Of a DNA stretch of 43,719 nt, positions 1-43,719 are shown piece by piece. The position numbers were made by a program, and so were the translations under genes. The stretch is from IMG/VR virus record IMGVR_UViG_3300031951_000353, positions 1 through 43,719 of that record; one strand, written 5' to 3'. Under the pieces are notes generated by a model that was not told where the DNA came from, did not search any database, and saw only the letters and a program-made list of their open reading frames with translations. Numbering within the stretch: position 1 is the first letter of the stretch; every line of letters starts with the position of its first letter. This DNA is from a virus.

Positions 1-66
1 CTTCGCGATGCCGCCCGCCGCCACCTGCACGCCCGCCCGGCCCTCAGTGCTGCGAGGGTGAAAGGA

Positions 67-95
67 GATATAGAACCAAAACGGTTTCACGTCAA
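67..95 (-). promoter_or_regulatory. Leftward sigma-70-type promoter
   Basis: On the minus strand TTGACG (complement of 90-95) is followed after exactly 17 bases by TATATC (complement of 67-72). This is close to the sigma-70 consensus and points at the leftward operon whose first gene starts at 43549 across the circle junction. The same promoter appears at 43659-43687 in the end copy. The -35 box sits in the left arm of a palindrome, so a bound regulator would block it. Confidence 0.75.
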
Positions 96-125
96 GAACC
101 AAATTGGTTTGACGAGTGAAACCGA
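73..125. promoter_or_regulatory. Operator cluster between divergent promoters
   Basis: Half-sites of the form GGTTTSAC occur at 83-90 and 106-113 on the plus strand and, inverted, as GTGAAACC at 116-123. The segment 90-114 is a near-perfect palindrome (CGTCA and AACCAA on the left, TTGGTT and TGACG on the right, with a two-base bulge). The region is AT-rich against its surroundings. This is the arrangement expected for a lysis-lysogeny operator; the protein that binds is not identified, and the adjacent gene at 193 is a candidate. Confidence 0.6.
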
Positions 126-137
126 ACTGTGTACAAC
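109..137 (+). promoter_or_regulatory. Rightward sigma-70-type promoter
   Basis: TTGACG (109-114), a 17-base spacer and TACAAC (132-137) form a good -35 and a four-of-six -10. Transcription would start near 144 and give a leader of about 50 bases before the GTG at 193. The -35 lies in the right arm of the same palindrome that holds the leftward -35, so the two promoters diverge from a shared operator. Confidence 0.65.
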
Positions 138-192
138 GAGGGCGCGGGGCTGTGAGCCCGTTCAGTAGAAATCCCCAATCAGGAGTGGGAAC

Positions 193-2487: not shown

Positions 2488-2714
2488 GCGCCAACACCCG
2501 ACGCATTCGCCTCTACCGCGCTGCACTGAAGGCCGCCCAGACGCTGGCGCGCAGCTGCACCGGCCTCGTCTCGATGCCCGTCAGCACCGAGAACGACATG
2601 CGCCTCGACAGCATCGCGCTGCAGGACTTCATCGACCGCGCTCACCGGTACGAGCGCGAGGCGAACGAGCACCTCGAGCGCAAGGTGGCCAGCCGCCGCC
2701 GGAGGGCCGCATGA
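2484..2714 (+). CDS. Small hypothetical basic helical protein
   Basis: A 76-residue protein, mostly helical and basic at both ends (start VSANTRRIRLYRAALK, end KVASRRRRAA). It begins with GTG overlapping the previous stop (GTGA) and ends overlapping the next ATG (ATGA), which argues for translational coupling. The function is unknown; a nucleic-acid contact is possible from the basic tail. Confidence 0.6.
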   Translation: MSANTRRIRLYRAALKAAQTLARSCTGLVSMPVSTENDMRLDSIALQDFIDRAHRYEREANEHLERKVASRRRRAA

Positions 2715-3265
2715 GCGCGCTTCCATGCAACTGGTCCGTGATGCTGGCGTGCTCGAGGTCGGCGGCGCGGCGAGCGACGAAGGGCCGGGCGGAGATCTGG
2801 GCGGAAGACGTTGCTCAGGACGTGCTCGTTCAGGCATGGCTGGCGCACGAGAAGGGGTTCGGCGTCGGGCCTGAGCAGTACCGCTACCACGCGAGCAATG
2901 CGGTGAGGCGGTACGTGGGCGACGACCGGTGGAACGGGAGGGCTGCTGAGCACGTCGACCTGCGCTCGTTGGAGCGCCACCAGGCGAATGCTCGACACGA
3001 GCTCGGCCCCATCGCGCTGCACCGGCTTCAGGCGCTCTGGCCGACCCTGACGCCGTCGCAGCAGGCGGCCGTGTTCGCGCTCTGCACCGGCGGGAAGGGG
3101 TCAGGAGTCGAGGCGGCCGAAGAGTTCGGCGTCACGCGGCACGCCGTCGTGAAGGCGCAGGCCACGGCGCTGGAGCTGCTGAACATGCCGACTGCCGAGG
3201 CTGTTGCCGGCGGCGCGCTTCGGCAGCGGATCGCGAGCACGAAGGCGCAACGGAGGGCGGCATGA
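2711..3265 (+). CDS. Sigma-70-like transcription factor (early)
   Basis: The 184-residue protein has two parts that resemble sigma factors. Residues about 28-62 (AEDVAQDVLVQAWLAHEKG and onward) look like sigma region 2.1-2.2, which clamps RNA polymerase. Residues about 113-157 (LTPSQQAAVFALC, then EEFGVTRHAVVKAQATALELL) look like the region 4 helix-turn-helix. Region 2.3-2.4 is weak. It may redirect host RNA polymerase or may only be a sigma-like DNA-binding protein. It is coupled on both sides by ATGA overlaps in the early operon. Confidence 0.55.
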   Translation: MSALPCNWSVMLACSRSAARRATKGRAEIWAEDVAQDVLVQAWLAHEKGFGVGPEQYRYHASNAVRRYVGDDRWNGRAAEHVDLRSLERHQANARHELGPIALHRLQALWPTLTPSQQAAVFALCTGGKGSGVEAAEEFGVTRHAVVKAQATALELLNMPTAEAVAGGALRQRIASTKAQRRAA

Positions 3266-10637: not shown

Positions 10638-10666
10638 TTGACGCCGGTGAGTTAGTGCCGTATAAA
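10638..10666 (+). promoter_or_regulatory. Near-consensus sigma-70 promoter
   Basis: TTGACG (10638-10643), a spacer of exactly 17 bases, and TATAAA (10661-10666) lie in an unusually AT-rich 40-base patch of the 120-base gap after the large terminase. It should be read by the main host sigma factor and would express the genes at 10727 and 11165 independently of the phage operons. The leader then carries GAGGAGACACGACA before the ATG at 10727. Confidence 0.75.
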
Positions 10667-10726
10667 TCACCCACGACGGCGGCACGGAGCCGCGTCGAGG
10701 CCCGGGAGGGCCGAGGAGACACGACA

Positions 10727-11056
10727 ATGAACTCGATTGACCTCGTTTCGTTTGGCGGCGGTTCGGTGACGGTGCAGGTGCTCAACTCGGCGCTTCGCGT
10801 GACGGTGGCGCTCTCGGCGCTCGAAGGCGCGCTCGCGCGGGAGTTGGCCGCGTGCTTGGAGGACGCCGAGGCGCCGCAGGCCGATTGGGCCTGCATGGAC
10901 CTGACGGGGCTCGGAACGCTGACGCTTGGCCAGGTGTCGTGGCTGCGCTCGCTTGCCCTGCTGCCCGAGTCTCGCGCGCTGCCAGCGCCGTCAGCAGTGG
11001 CGCAGCTCGTGTCGCTGTCGCAGCCTCTGGCCAACCTGCCGCCCGAGGTTCGGTGA
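10727..11056 (+). CDS. Hypothetical protein of an independent unit
   Basis: A 109-residue protein with a strand-rich start (LVSFGGGSVTVQVLNSALRVTVAL) and helical remainder. ATG 10727 has AGGAGA 7 bases upstream and lies 60 bases past a strong promoter. It is between the terminase and portal genes, followed by two hairpins. Function unknown; an accessory gene expressed in the prophage (a moron) fits the context. Confidence 0.65.
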   Translation: MNSIDLVSFGGGSVTVQVLNSALRVTVALSALEGALARELAACLEDAEAPQADWACMDLTGLGTLTLGQVSWLRSLALLPESRALPAPSAVAQLVSLSQPLANLPPEVR

Positions 11057-11063
11057 CCCACCG

Positions 11064-11117
11064 CCCGACCCCTCACCGGGTCGGGCCCGTCGCAGGGCGA
11101 CTGCTCGCCCGCCCTGC
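11064..11117 (+). terminator. Tandem hairpins after the 10727 gene
   Basis: CCCGACCC (11064-11071) pairs perfectly with GGGTCGGG (11078-11085) around 6 bases, and GCAGGGCG (11092-11099) pairs with CGCCCTGC (11110-11117) around 10 bases. Two 8-bp GC-rich stems this close suggest a terminator or attenuator between the genes at 10727 and 11165. No T-run follows. Confidence 0.5.
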
Positions 11118-11164
11118 GTAGGACTCCACTGGCGAGCTGCGGCGGGAGCCGCGAGGACGCGACC

Positions 11165-11680
11165 ATGACGACCACGACCATCAACGACCTGTTCACCCGC
11201 TACGCCGACGGCTGCGGCTCGGAGGGCCCGGCGCTCGACCGCGTCGCCCTCCAGGACGACTTCCGTGACTGGTGCCGGGCGCGCGGGGTGGAGGCACGGT
11301 ACGAGGTGCAGGGCGAGGCGTACCTCGTGGCCGACGACGGCCCCTACAGCGACACGGCCACCTCGGACGATGCGCGGTCGGCGCTGGACCGTCACGACGC
11401 GGAACTGCTGGCGGGGACGGTGGCGGTGAGCGTCACCGGCGTGACGGCTGAGGAGTCGGACGACGTCGACGCGGCGTACTGGGTGGAGGCCGACGTCTCG
11501 GGCCTCGGTCACGAGGTGAGAGGCGTGCGCCTCTACGCAGCGCCCACGCAGCCGACTGGCCGGCTGGCCCCCTGTGGCGACTCGCTCGACTGCTGGATGG
11601 ACCCGGAGCTGTCGCGGATCTACGGCGAGTCCCTCGCGCGGGTCATCGGGCAGGAAGCCATCGCCCGGGCGCGCGTCTGA
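11165..11680 (+). CDS. Highly acidic hypothetical protein
   Basis: The 171-residue protein has 32 Asp/Glu, 15 Arg and no Lys by my count, a net charge near -17. It starts MTTTTINDLFTRYADGC and contains several alternating strand segments. ATG follows GAGGAC. It sits behind the consensus promoter at 10638 and two hairpins, and before another hairpin at 11773. Strongly acidic small phage proteins are often DNA mimics that block restriction enzymes or other DNA-binding host proteins; that role is only a hypothesis here, as no known family was recognised. Confidence 0.65.
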   Translation: MTTTTINDLFTRYADGCGSEGPALDRVALQDDFRDWCRARGVEARYEVQGEAYLVADDGPYSDTATSDDARSALDRHDAELLAGTVAVSVTGVTAEESDDVDAAYWVEADVSGLGHEVRGVRLYAAPTQPTGRLAPCGDSLDCWMDPELSRIYGESLARVIGQEAIARARV

Positions 11681-11772
11681 CGGAATCCCCGCGCGCATCC
11701 TCAGCGCGGTGACGGCTGGCCCGGCCATCCACAGGGCAGCGACGGCGAGGCAACTCGCCCGTCGTCTCGAGC

Positions 11773-11790
11773 CCCCGAGTCACCTCGGGG
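11773..11790 (+). terminator. Hairpin upstream of the 11801 gene
   Basis: CCCCGAG (11773-11779) pairs with CTCGGGG (11784-11790) around the 4-base loop TCAC. It is 93 bases past the acidic-protein gene and 10 bases before the next ATG. It could end the moron-like transcript or restrict translation of the small gene behind it. Confidence 0.45.
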
Positions 11791-11800
11791 CCTGGGGACG

Positions 11801-11965
11801 ATGCCGCGACGGAGAAGGTCAGTGTGGGACGATGTCGAGTCTGCAATCGAGGAGCGACAGACAATGCTCCGAGAGAGCAGGCGTAGGCGAACTGCTGAGG
11901 CGAGGCGGAAGGCGCTCGCCAAGAAGCAGCGCAAGGTAAAGGCGCGCAAGGAGGAGGCGCTGTGA
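11801..11965 (+). CDS. Small, very basic helical protein
   Basis: A 54-residue open frame starting MPRRRRSVWDDVESAIEER. It has about 20 Arg/Lys and reads as one long charged helix. Its TGA overlaps the GTG of the next gene (GTGA at 11962-11965), the coupling seen throughout this phage, which supports translation. The Shine-Dalgarno box is weak (GGGGA). Together with the RHH-like gene behind it, it could form a nucleic-acid-binding pair. Confidence 0.55.
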   Translation: MPRRRRSVWDDVESAIEERQTMLRESRRRRTAEARRKALAKKQRKVKARKEEAL

Positions 11966-12192
11966 CGCGTCGGCGGAAGTCGAACAACCCTGCAGGCCGC
12001 CCCTCGAAGGGCCTCACCGAAGTGCGGCTCGAGCTGCGCATGCCGGAGGAGCTGCGCGCGTCGGCTGCGTCGATGGCGCTCGCCGACGGCGTGTCGGTCA
12101 ACGAGTGGTGGCGGCGAGCCGGGCGCGCTGCCATCGACGCGGCGATCGCCGGGCCGGTGGACACGCGCATTCCCGCCGAGGAGTGGGGATGA
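11962..12192 (+). CDS. Ribbon-helix-helix protein
   Basis: A 76-residue protein whose central part matches the Arc/RHH pattern: strand VRLELRMPEELRA (21-33), helix ASMALADG, and helix SVNEWWRRAGRAAID (about 45-59). The N-terminus is basic. Such dimers bind DNA operators or pair with toxins. Here it is coupled to the upstream basic peptide and the downstream RusA-like gene by 4-base overlaps. Its target is unknown. Confidence 0.7.
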   Translation: MTRRRKSNNPAGRPSKGLTEVRLELRMPEELRASAASMALADGVSVNEWWRRAGRAAIDAAIAGPVDTRIPAEEWG

Positions 12193-12590
12193 AGGCGCTG
12201 GCGCTGGCGCGCGTCTCGACGCACGAGGCGCACGCTGAGGCGTCCGCGCGGTACGAGCTGCGCGACCCGCTCAACGGGCGCGACCTTTCCGTGTCGCGCG
12301 GCGCACGCAACGCCCGACGCGGGCGAGAGCGGAAACTCGGCCGATTGCTGGCGCGAGACCTCGCCTGTGCGTGGCCTGGCGGAGTGTGTGCCGTTGTGCT
12401 GACGCGCGTGTCACCGCGTCCGTTCGACGCCCACAAACTCAAGGCCATCTTTGAGGCGGTGCGCGACGGCATGGCTCAGCAATGGGGTGTCGACGACGGC
12501 GACGACGCCGTGGTGTGGCTGTACGACGGGCGCAAGGGTCCTGACGCACGAGTCGAGGCGCGGCTGTGGTGGCTGTCAGAGCTGACCTGA
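12189..12590 (+). CDS. RusA-like protein with degraded active site
   Basis: This 133-residue protein resembles RusA in its second half: a strand CAVVLTRVSPRPF (66-79), the helix LKAIFEAVRDGMAQQWGVDDGDD (84-106), then VVWLYDGRKGPDARVEARLWW. Compared with the LDDDN of the RusA-like protein at 6311, it reads FDAHK (79-83), so the second metal Asp and the Asn are lost and the following Lys is Glu; D80, R92 and D93 remain. It is probably inactive as a nuclease or has a changed role, perhaps in DNA binding near packaging. Confidence 0.55.
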   Translation: MKALALARVSTHEAHAEASARYELRDPLNGRDLSVSRGARNARRGRERKLGRLLARDLACAWPGGVCAVVLTRVSPRPFDAHKLKAIFEAVRDGMAQQWGVDDGDDAVVWLYDGRKGPDARVEARLWWLSELT

Positions 12591-12678: not shown

Positions 12679-14211
12679 ATGGCTGAGCGCCCGACGTTTC
12701 GCGAATACCGAGAGCTGCCCACGTGGACGTGGAGCGACTGGGAGAAGGTGGAGTTGGTGCGCCGGGCGGTGCGCGAGCTCGAGCTGGGGCAGCTGTCGTC
12801 GGCGGCGCAGGTGGTGGACGCGATGGGCCAGGACGACCGGCTCCGCGGGTGTCTCCTGCAGCGCACCGAGGCGTTGCCGTCCCTGCCCTTCAACATGAAG
12901 GAGGCGCCGACGGGCGGGCGCGCGGCCGAGGCGGCCGAGTTGGCCCAGCAGCGCTTCGAGGCGATGTGCAGCGACGAGGCCCTCACCGAGTTGGGGAAGT
13001 GGGCCGTCATGCTGGGCATCGCGGTGGGCCAGCTGACGTGGACGGTGGGCGACGACGGGCTGTGGTGGCCCTCGCTTCAGGTGTGGCACCCGAAGCACCT
13101 GCACTGGCAGTGGGACACGAGGGCGTGGCACCTCAACACCGAGCAAGGCGTCATCCGCCTCACGCCTGGTGATGGGCAGTGGGTGGTGTTCGCTCCCTAC
13201 GGACTCATGCGCGCGTGGATGGCGGGCGCGGTGCGGGCGCTGTACGTGCCTTGGCTGCTGCGTCGGTGGGGGCAACGAGACTGGGCGCGCTACTCGGAGG
13301 TGTACGGCGGGCCCATTCGCGCGGTGAAGACGCCAGCGGCGGCCGAGGAGGCCGACAAGCAGCGCTTTGTCGAGGAGGTGGCGGGCATCGGCAACGAGGC
13401 CGTGTTGCGTTTGCCGACGTCGCCCGACGCAACGCAGTCCTACGACATGCAACTCATCGAGGCGAAGTCGACAGGGTGGGAGTCCTTCGACCGACTCATC
13501 AAGCAGGCCGAGTCGTCGATGGCCATCGCACTGCTGGGGCAGAACCTCTCCACCGAGGTGAAGGGCGGCTCTCTCGCGGCGGCGCGGGTGCATGCCGGCA
13601 TTCGCAACGACGTACTGGAGGGCGACGCGCAGCGCCTCGCGAAGTGCCTTCATGAGCAGGTGATGAGGCCCTGGGCGCGCTTCAACTTCGGGGACGAGCG
13701 CGCAGCGCCCATGCCTAACTGGGTGACGGCGCCGCCCGAGGAGAAGAAGGAAGAGGGCGACTCGCTGAAGTCGCTCGGCGACGGCATCAGCAGCCTGCAG
13801 AAGACTGGCGCGCAGCTGGACGTGGACGCCGTCCTCGAGAAGCACGGCGTGCCGGTGACGGGCCCGGCCGAGGAGCCGCCGGCGTCGGAGCCACCGCCAG
13901 GTGCAGGGCTGTCTGCGGCCGAGGCGCTGCGTGCCGCGAAGGCCACGGGGGCGCTGCGGGGCCAGCTGTACGTCGACAGGGTGGCCGCTGCGGCCCAGGA
14001 GGCCGGCAACAGGGCGCTGCGCCCCGACGTGCAGAAGGTGCTGCTGGCGGTGGCCAACAGCAACGACTTCGACGAGCTGAAGGGCCGCCTCGTCGAGGCC
14101 TTCGGCGCGATGGAGCCCGACGCCTTCGCCGACGTGCTGGCCAAGGCGATGACGCTGGCCGAGCTGGCCGGCCGGCTGTCGGTGCTCGAGGACTTGCCCG
14201 CGAAGCCGTGA
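12679..14211 (+). CDS. Portal protein, Mu gp29-like (DUF935)
   Basis: The 510-residue protein matches the DUF935 portal of Mu: a PTWTWSDWEKVELVRRAVRELELGQLSSAAQVVDAMGQDDRL start, central VYGGPIRAVK, and IALLGQNLSTEVKGGSLAAARVHAGIRNDVLEGDAQRLAKCLHEQVMRPWARFNFG with the conserved LGQNLSTE and GGS. Twelve copies form the DNA channel at one head vertex. The C-terminal 130 residues are Ala-rich and may contact gpF-like protein. There is no clear Shine-Dalgarno box before the ATG. Its stop overlaps the sigma gene by 4 bases. Confidence 0.93.
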   Translation: MAERPTFREYRELPTWTWSDWEKVELVRRAVRELELGQLSSAAQVVDAMGQDDRLRGCLLQRTEALPSLPFNMKEAPTGGRAAEAAELAQQRFEAMCSDEALTELGKWAVMLGIAVGQLTWTVGDDGLWWPSLQVWHPKHLHWQWDTRAWHLNTEQGVIRLTPGDGQWVVFAPYGLMRAWMAGAVRALYVPWLLRRWGQRDWARYSEVYGGPIRAVKTPAAAEEADKQRFVEEVAGIGNEAVLRLPTSPDATQSYDMQLIEAKSTGWESFDRLIKQAESSMAIALLGQNLSTEVKGGSLAAARVHAGIRNDVLEGDAQRLAKCLHEQVMRPWARFNFGDERAAPMPNWVTAPPEEKKEEGDSLKSLGDGISSLQKTGAQLDVDAVLEKHGVPVTGPAEEPPASEPPPGAGLSAAEALRAAKATGALRGQLYVDRVAAAAQEAGNRALRPDVQKVLLAVANSNDFDELKGRLVEAFGAMEPDAFADVLAKAMTLAELAGRLSVLEDLPAKP

Positions 14212-14789
14212 AGCCCGTCTCTGCCGACGTCGTGGTGAAGGCCCAGCGCGGGGACAAGCGCGCGCTCGAGCTGGTGCTGGCCTCCGTCGAGGGCCTGGTG
14301 GCGCGCGGGGCCAAGCGCATTCGTCGCGCCGGCCTCGACGTCGACGACATGTTGCAGGAGGGGCGCATGGGCGCGCTGCGCGCGGTGGAGACATTCAAAC
14401 CCGGCAAGGGCGCCAACTTCGCGACGTGGGCAGCCTATTGGGTGAGCGCGTTCCAGCGGCGCGCGTTGAAGCGGGCCGAGCGCCTCGAGGCGGACTCGTT
14501 GGATGAGCCGATCGGAGACGACGAAACGACGCTGCGCATCGACACGGTGCCGGCTGCTGGACTGTCCCCCGAGGAGAGGGTGGCTGACGTCGAGCTGCAC
14601 GAGGCTGTGGCGCGCGTGGTGACGGCGACAGGCCCCAAGCCCTTCCGCGAGGTCATGCGCGGCCAGCTGCGCGGGGAGATGCTGCACGAGACGGGCAGCC
14701 GCCTGGGCCTCACGCGCGAGGCCGTTCGACTGCGCCGCCTGCGCGCCCTCGAGTTCGCCCGCCCTGCCTTGGAGAAGCTCGTCTCATGA
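14208..14789 (+). CDS. RNA polymerase sigma-70-family factor in the head operon
   Basis: The 193-residue protein has sigma region 2 at about 11-92: DVDDMLQEGRMGALRAVETF matches region 2.1-2.2 and FATWAAYWVSAFQRRALKRA region 2.3-2.4. A spacer with GLSPEERVAD follows, and region 4 lies at about 158-190 (GSRLGLTREAVRLRRLRALEFARPAL), the -35-binding helix-turn-helix. GTG 14208 overlaps the portal stop, and its own stop overlaps the gpF-like ATG, so it is made along with head proteins. It should recruit host RNA polymerase to late phage promoters. Sigma factors at this place in a Mu-type head cluster are not part of the Mu plan. Confidence 0.85.
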   Translation: MKPVSADVVVKAQRGDKRALELVLASVEGLVARGAKRIRRAGLDVDDMLQEGRMGALRAVETFKPGKGANFATWAAYWVSAFQRRALKRAERLEADSLDEPIGDDETTLRIDTVPAAGLSPEERVADVELHEAVARVVTATGPKPFREVMRGQLRGEMLHETGSRLGLTREAVRLRRLRALEFARPALEKLVS

Positions 14790-15463
14790 ATGCGCCGGCT
14801 GAGGTTGCACGCTTCGAGGAGGCGCTGGCGTACTTCCGGCAGCGCATGCCCGACTTGGTGGCGGACGACGTCGAGGCGCTGCTGGTGCAGATGCGCATGC
14901 GTGCGCGCATGTGGAGCGCGAAGGCGCAACTCGACCTGGCCACCACCGTCTGGGAGGGCATCGAGGCAGCGGTGGCCGACGGCGAGACGTTCGCAGACTT
15001 CAAGGCGCGCATCTCCGACGTGGTGACGCGCGGCTTCGGCGGCGCGGCACAGCCCGAGGCGTGGTGGCTCGAGCGCATCTTCCGCACCAACGTGCAGCGG
15101 GCCTACGGGGGCGGGCGCGTGCGGCAGCTCTCGGAGCCCGACGTCCTGGCGGCGCGGCCCTTCTGGCGCTTCTCGGCCGTCTTCGACTCGCGCACCTCGG
15201 AGACATGCAAGGCGTGCCGCGGCACCGTGCTGCCTGCGAATCACCCATGGTGGCGCACGCACCAGCCGCCGCTCCACCACTCGTGTCGAAGCACCATCAT
15301 TCCGATGACGGCGCGCGCTGGTGAGGCTGCGCTGACGAAGCAACCGCCCCAGGGCGAGCCTGAAGAGGGCTTCGGCAACGTGGAAGTCGAGCCGATTCCA
15401 CGCGTGGAACTGCGGAAGTACCCGCCGGAGCTTGTCGAGAAGTGGAAGGGGCCGACACAGTAG
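14786..15463 (+). CDS. Head morphogenesis protein, Mu gpF-like
   Basis: The 225-residue protein has the SPP1 gp7/Mu gpF signature: FRTNVQRAYGGGRVRQL, then FWRFSAVFDSRTSETCKACRGTVLPANHPWWRTHQPPLHHSCRSTIIP, with Cys and His residues typical of the family. These minor head proteins bind the portal and act early in prohead assembly or DNA ejection. Mu order (portal, gpF, protease) is kept apart from the inserted sigma gene. Confidence 0.9.
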   Translation: MNAPAEVARFEEALAYFRQRMPDLVADDVEALLVQMRMRARMWSAKAQLDLATTVWEGIEAAVADGETFADFKARISDVVTRGFGGAAQPEAWWLERIFRTNVQRAYGGGRVRQLSEPDVLAARPFWRFSAVFDSRTSETCKACRGTVLPANHPWWRTHQPPLHHSCRSTIIPMTARAGEAALTKQPPQGEPEEGFGNVEVEPIPRVELRKYPPELVEKWKGPTQ

Positions 15464-22271: not shown

Positions 22272-22435
22272 CGGCGGCGCTTGAGCGCGCGCATCGGTCG
22301 CCGTCAGTCGCTGCTGAGTACCTGCTGGCCTTCGCGCGGGGCCACGACGAGGAGGACGAGGAAGCGCCCTACGTGGGCGCGCTGCTGGTGGCCGAGTTCC
22401 TCCACCTGGTGAGGACGGCCCTGACGAAGAGGTGA
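21954..22435 (+). CDS. Tail assembly chaperone, -1 frameshift long form
   Basis: The in-frame part covers 103 codons to 22262, where tandem slippage on A AAA AAA moves ribosomes to the -1 frame and continues as SPLTAALERAHRSPS to the stop at 22433-22435, giving about 160 residues. The extension has a helix rich in acidic residues (FARGHDEEDEEAP) and EFLHLVRTALTK. The position just before the tape measure, the heptamer and the open -1 frame match the G/GT arrangement of lambda and many other phages. Join: 21954..22262, 22262..22435. Confidence 0.8.
22256..22262 (+). promoter_or_regulatory. Slippery heptamer AAAAAAA
   Basis: Seven A residues, a striking run in this GC-rich genome, are read TCA AAA AAA GCC in frame 0. 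A -1 slip re-pairs both tRNAs on AAA AAA perfectly. The frame 0 stop follows at 22269, and the -1 frame is open to 22435. Confidence 0.85.
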
Positions 22436-43592: not shown

Positions 43593-43719
43593 CTTCGCGA
43601 TGCCGCCCGCCGCCACCTGCACGCCCGCCCGGCCCTCAGTGCTGCGAGGGTGAAAGGAGATATAGAACCAAAACGGTTTCACGTCAAGAACCAAATTGGT
43701 TTGACGAGTGAAACCGAAC
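43593..43719. repeat. Second copy of the terminal repeat
   Basis: This is the exact copy of bases 1-127. In the closed circle only one copy should exist, placing the leftward gene at 43549 directly upstream of the control region and the rightward gene at 193 on its other side. Confidence 0.9.

Follow-up and report, generated by a model that had tools for sequence, protein, structure and literature searches.

A sigma-70-family gene at the portal/gpF junction in a small clade of uncultured phages with Mu-type heads

What is a sigma factor, the protein telling bacterial RNA polymerase where to start, doing among the head genes of a phage? This question is raised by the window analysed here, that is, the whole 43,719-base record of an uncultured virus. 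In the window, a block of Mu-type head and contractile-tail genes is accompanied by an integrase-like gene (952–2097, below the Pfam cut-off) and a C5 methyltransferase gene; the window proteins searched included no Mu transposase. A direct terminal repeat of 127 bases is formed by positions 1–127 and 43593–43719, and therefore the window is probably a complete or near-complete circular assembly. The terminal repeat of a related phage, G056, has the same length, which is likely the assembly k-mer. Features of the locus are listed in Table 1.

Table 1. Positions in the window of the sigma gene, its domains, the flanking genes and an upstream promoter-like site.
Feature	Position	Strand	Details
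Host sigma-70-type promoter-like site TTGACG-17-TATAAA	10638..10666	+	1 found, 0.07 expected
Portal protein, Mu type	12679..14211	+	PF06074 1.7e-59; 4-base overlap with the sigma gene
Sigma-70-family factor gene	14208..14789	+	GTG start, 193 aa, sigma2 – linker – sigma4
Sigma domain 2, residues 7–92, regions 2.1–2.4	14226..14483	+	Pfam r2 at 28–92; VIA-align to 5h6x
Linker, residues 96–120, SLDEPIGDDETTLRIDT	14493..14567	+	phmmer alignment; predicted disordered
Sigma domain 4, residues 121–192, C-terminal helix-turn-helix GSRLGLTREAVRLRRLRAL	14568..14783	+	Model helices, phmmer stretch, TIGR02937
gpF-like (MuF) minor head protein	14786..15463	+	PF04233 8.2e-14, PHROG 220 1.5e-38; 4-base overlap with the sigma gene

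The open reading frame was found where the first-pass annotation had placed a sigma gene, between the portal and gpF-like genes, and the profile search bears out both its assignment to the sigma-70 family and the presence of region 2. The product is matched by Pfam Sigma70_r2 (8.2e-14; 51.6 bits against a cut-off of 24), by NCBIfam TIGR02937 (2.7e-17; 62.9 bits against a cut-off of 42.9, residues 19–184) and by PHROG 351, "RNA polymerase sigma factor" (4.4e-21). Its best solved relatives in PDB, searched with phmmer, are RpoS and SigA chains (RpoS 8.6e-17, two matched stretches). As a group-specific equivalog the protein falls below the cut-offs for both RpoS (65 bits against 378.7) and RpoD (55.8 bits against 354). 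Region 4, described earlier as recognisable too, is less distinct: the Pfam model for this region alone gives 13.8 bits in the window's protein, below the cut-off of 24.1, and exceeds the cut-off in the orthologues from G002 and G056 (40.9 and 31.1 bits). Nevertheless, its helix-turn-helix is supported by the extension of the TIGR02937 match to residue 184, by the second RpoS stretch, by the fold and by these two orthologues. The gene is real and belongs to the sigma-70 family far beyond chance; a chance ORF or a wrong-frame artefact is ruled out by the family scores, by dN/dS below 1 and by the orthologues. Beside the methyltransferase gene, the ORF at 2711–3265 has a weak sigma region-2-like stretch; it scores 13.7 bits in Pfam, below the cut-off, and is not claimed as a second sigma gene.

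Regions 1.1 and 3.0/3.1 are absent from the window's protein and the aligned domains are present, which gives the two-domain layout with a linker in between. The linker aligns in phmmer with the RpoS/SigA stretch that precedes region 4 and contains region 3.2. The protein carries a core-binding stretch, LDVDDMLQEG, and a melting stretch, NFATWAAYW, identified by alignment to sigma-70 with the conventional numbering and residue roles of that family. In this alignment the former keeps the D, Q and E positions, and the latter keeps F, T, the aromatic residue and W. The core-binding Q, the F and W of the melting motif and an R of region 4 are invariant in all five orthologues. A structure predicted without an alignment was poor (pLDDT 60.5), and the AlphaFold2 model built from five aligned orthologues (mean pLDDT 79.5) was used; residues 95–115, with pLDDT below 50, form the disordered linker. 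Both modelled domains were placed on sigma factors by Foldseek and VIA-align. Region 2 was superimposed by VIA-align on the crystal structure of RpoS region 1.2/2 (5h6x) with Z of 13.4 and rmsd of 1.9 over 91 residues. Whole-length alignments of the model to RpoS/RpoD covered approximately 165–175 residues; their rmsd was large, since the model leaves the relative placement of the two sigma domains undefined.

A sigma gene occupies the identical junction in four other phages: L003, a near copy of the window phage in a pond MAG, and the IMG/VR phages G002/L007, G003/L008 and G056/L081, whose portals are 52–57% identical to that of the window. In these carriers it overlaps the portal gene by 4 bases (17 in G003) and the gpF gene by 4 bases. 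A recent one-off insertion is ruled out by this identical junction in four lineages. The window's own overlaps, GTGA at 14208–14211 with the portal gene and ATGA at 14786–14789 with the gpF gene, had been interpreted as translational coupling. The overlaps are real, but the argument is weak: such 4-base overlaps occur in 20 of the 60 same-strand neighbour pairs of the window and hence are not special here. The near copies L002 and L003 sit in a MAG called Microbacteriaceae, yet the nearest cultured phage infects Myxococcus, which casts doubt on either the binning or the identity of the host.

Approximately 130–135 records with Mu-type heads were retrieved by similarity of the portal, gpF or major capsid protein, and the portal–gpF interval was measured directly wherever both genes were found. 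Among these records no further sigma gene was seen at the portal/gpF junction; many of them are fragments, so absence of a sigma gene elsewhere in those phages is not proven, and a sigma match lies elsewhere in the record in G028, G031 and G111. When the sigma sequence served as the query against viral contigs, the known members alone were recovered. The portal and gpF genes abut in many relatives, and small unrelated ORFs fill the interval in others; thus the junction is a slot for extra genes, in which sigma has been kept by one clade. One ORF in this slot (L011:3779-4562) resembles a DEDD exonuclease by eye. The measured intervals agree with the earlier observation that Mu-type head plans ordinarily show no counterpart at the junction, and conservation of a sigma gene at this site holds within a small clade and ends outside it. 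No sigma factor between portal and MuF is described in the literature searched, the coverage of which was limited. A sigma gene at one junction inside the head operon across a clade is without precedent in the literature and records searched, phage sigma factors themselves being known. The MuF proteins of the Myxococcus phage Mx4 (L004:23958-25364) and G003 (L008:8155-9516) have a C-terminal zinc-protease-like domain that is absent from the window's 225-aa gpF; it is above the Pfam cut-off (ATLF) in the Mx4 protein only.

The sigma proteins diverge faster than their neighbours. Identity of the window's sigma to those of G002, G003 and G056 is 32–34%, compared with 51–57% for portal and gpF, and the pairwise identities among the four phages are 52–69% for portal, 51–71% for gpF and 32–50% for sigma. 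The closest pair is G002 and G056 for all three proteins, which fits inheritance of sigma along with portal and gpF. The gpT (capsid) and decoration genes pair G002 with G003 instead, and therefore the block, taken together, is a mosaic. In a gene tree including sigma factors of the MAG, a single origin received support of 52/73; as many of the comparison ORFs had been read on the wrong strand, this value is given no weight.

The nucleotide identity between the window and L003 is 97–99% for gpT, gp36, sheath and tube, 94% for gpF, 89% for the decoration gene and 83% for sigma, the most changed of the genes measured. The sigma gene is under purifying selection, with dN/dS of 0.13/0.39 for the whole gene in this comparison. 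The divergence peaks at codons 41–95 (dN 0.28, dS 0.67); in region 4 only 2 of 56 residues differ (dN 0.017, dS 0.22). Since dS is raised as well as dN, local allele exchange by recombination appears likelier than point selection alone.

Host-type promoters of the form TTGACG-N17-TANNA occur at only two sites of the long plus-strand block (109 and 10638), leaving much of the late block without an obvious host promoter. The site at 10638 is upstream of a small-gene cassette and the portal–sigma–gpF run, and read-through from it could extend to the sigma gene. In L002 both hexamers of this site are retained, with another spacer and another gene behind them; such a pattern would be expected if the promoter served a cassette inserted between terminase and portal. 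G002, G003 and G056 have no upstream host-type promoter. The small-gene cassette itself (10638–12590, between terminase and portal) is absent from the same three phages. At the beginning of the window (60–150), palindrome-like ACCAAANTGGTTT repeats surround a TTGACG-17-TACAAC site, and they are also present in G002 at approximately 22340–22420; they are likely repressor operators of a lysogeny switch.

Promoters recognized by the phage sigma were sought by a dyad search in 71 intergenic stretches of four phages, and the counts of the best 5-mer pairs did not exceed those in shuffled sequences. A candidate phage-specific promoter, GRCACCSTSGGGRCATG, conserved just before the portal start in the window, G002 and G056, was rejected, because its end falls on the start codon and it may be a translation signal only.

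Most likely, the protein is an alternative sigma factor of the phage that steers host RNA polymerase to phage promoters in late expression. Its synthesis would fall in the late phase, alongside that of portal and gpF; domain 2 would bind the host core RNA polymerase, which would then be directed to phage promoters while heads and tails are being produced. The gene is a member of the operon that it would help to express, and so it might either reinforce the late genes by positive feedback or switch on very late genes; this location is more consistent with feedback than with starting the transcription of that operon. Since four relatives carry the gene at exactly the same place, it probably belongs to the late-gene control of these phages. 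A role in late transcription, proposed already in the first-pass annotation, thus remains the best reading of the locus, although the motif search in the intergenic DNA of the four phages, which yielded no shared target motif, counts against it.

It is unlikely, if conceivable, that sigma is an accessory gene ("moron") whose product turns the polymerase towards genes of the host itself, such as those of development or stress response, and not to phage promoters. The variable content of the portal–gpF interval, including the exonuclease-like ORF of L011, and the fast evolution of sigma are compatible with such a gene; the upstream host-type promoter of the window could provide expression in the lysogen, and phage sporulation-like sigmas change host programmes while being non-essential for the phage tested (PMC9429907). 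However, four lineages with portals only 52–69% identical keep sigma at the exact junction and without a promoter of its own, sigma follows portal and gpF in inheritance, and the upstream promoter is missing from G002, G003 and G056.

The retention of the core-binding region amid strong divergence of other parts could also indicate a decoy, which would compete with the host sigma for core polymerase and dampen late host transcription without promoters of its own. In G003 the residues that normally serve recognition in region 4 are missing (ARS in place of TRE), and comparison of the window with L003 shows a hypervariable region 2. Still, region 4 is nearly invariant in the latter comparison and canonical in G002 (SRERVRQIQ), which argues for retained DNA binding, and the F and W of the melting motif are unchanged in every orthologue; we consider a decoy improbable. 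Low probability is likewise assigned to a more elaborate scheme, in which sigma is a fixed part of the portal–gpF unit in an uncultured Mu-head clade, acts in the virion or in late assembly and ties transcription control, physically or in time, to head assembly, and domain 2 is exchanged between near-identical phages, changing promoter or polymerase preference. Packaging of sigma beside portal and gpF, for injection and early transcription in the next cell, is also improbable; entry into the virion had been raised in the first-pass annotation. It is suggested solely by the location of the gene, with the portal on one side and on the other a member of a MuF family whose annotation reads minor head protein and DNA pilot. 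A good promoter of host type, at 109, already serves the early region, leaving no apparent need for an injected sigma, and the slot holds small genes other than sigmas in relatives.

As a presumed late alternative sigma, the protein can be compared with known systems. In region 2, the linker and region 4 alike, it is matched best, both in sequence and in fold, by the RpoS/SigA factors (groups 1–2), which differ in having regions 1.1 and 3.0/3.1 that the 193-aa protein lacks. Phage-encoded sigmas for middle and late genes, essential in their phages, are represented by gp55 of T4 and gp28/gp34 of SPO1 (PMC9429907). Their sequences are very divergent, whereas domain 2 of the window's protein clearly resembles RpoS/RpoD. 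T4 and SPO1 are lytic, and their late sigma genes are not known to be embedded in a head cluster. The protein of the window would nevertheless act in the manner of these late sigmas.

Among cultured phages, Mx4 is nearest to the window in its head and tail genes, with colinear gene order and a portal of 45% identity. No sigma match was found anywhere in the Mx4 genome, and only a 43-aa ORF (p45) lies between its portal and MuF genes; p45 was rejected as a sigma remnant, since it has no Pfam match and the genome has no match to sigma region 2. The function of sigma is thus dispensable to the head plan itself, close relatives such as Mx4 growing without a detectable sigma. If sigma drives the late genes, it would constitute a simple positive-feedback late switch, though one that Mx4 does without.

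Xpf of the Bacillus subtilis defective phage PBSX is a sigma2–sigma4 positive control factor (PMC10141391; PMC4243946). Like Xpf, the protein described here is a small phage-encoded sigma2–sigma4 protein, and it would redirect host polymerase in late expression much as Xpf presumably does. The xpf gene lies upstream of the terminase genes and outside the structural genes, whereas in the window the gene belongs to the head operon itself, at the junction of portal and gpF. In a more distant Mu-head contig, L036, a region-2 protein is encoded just before the terminase genes, an arrangement nearer to that of Xpf than is the sigma of the window.
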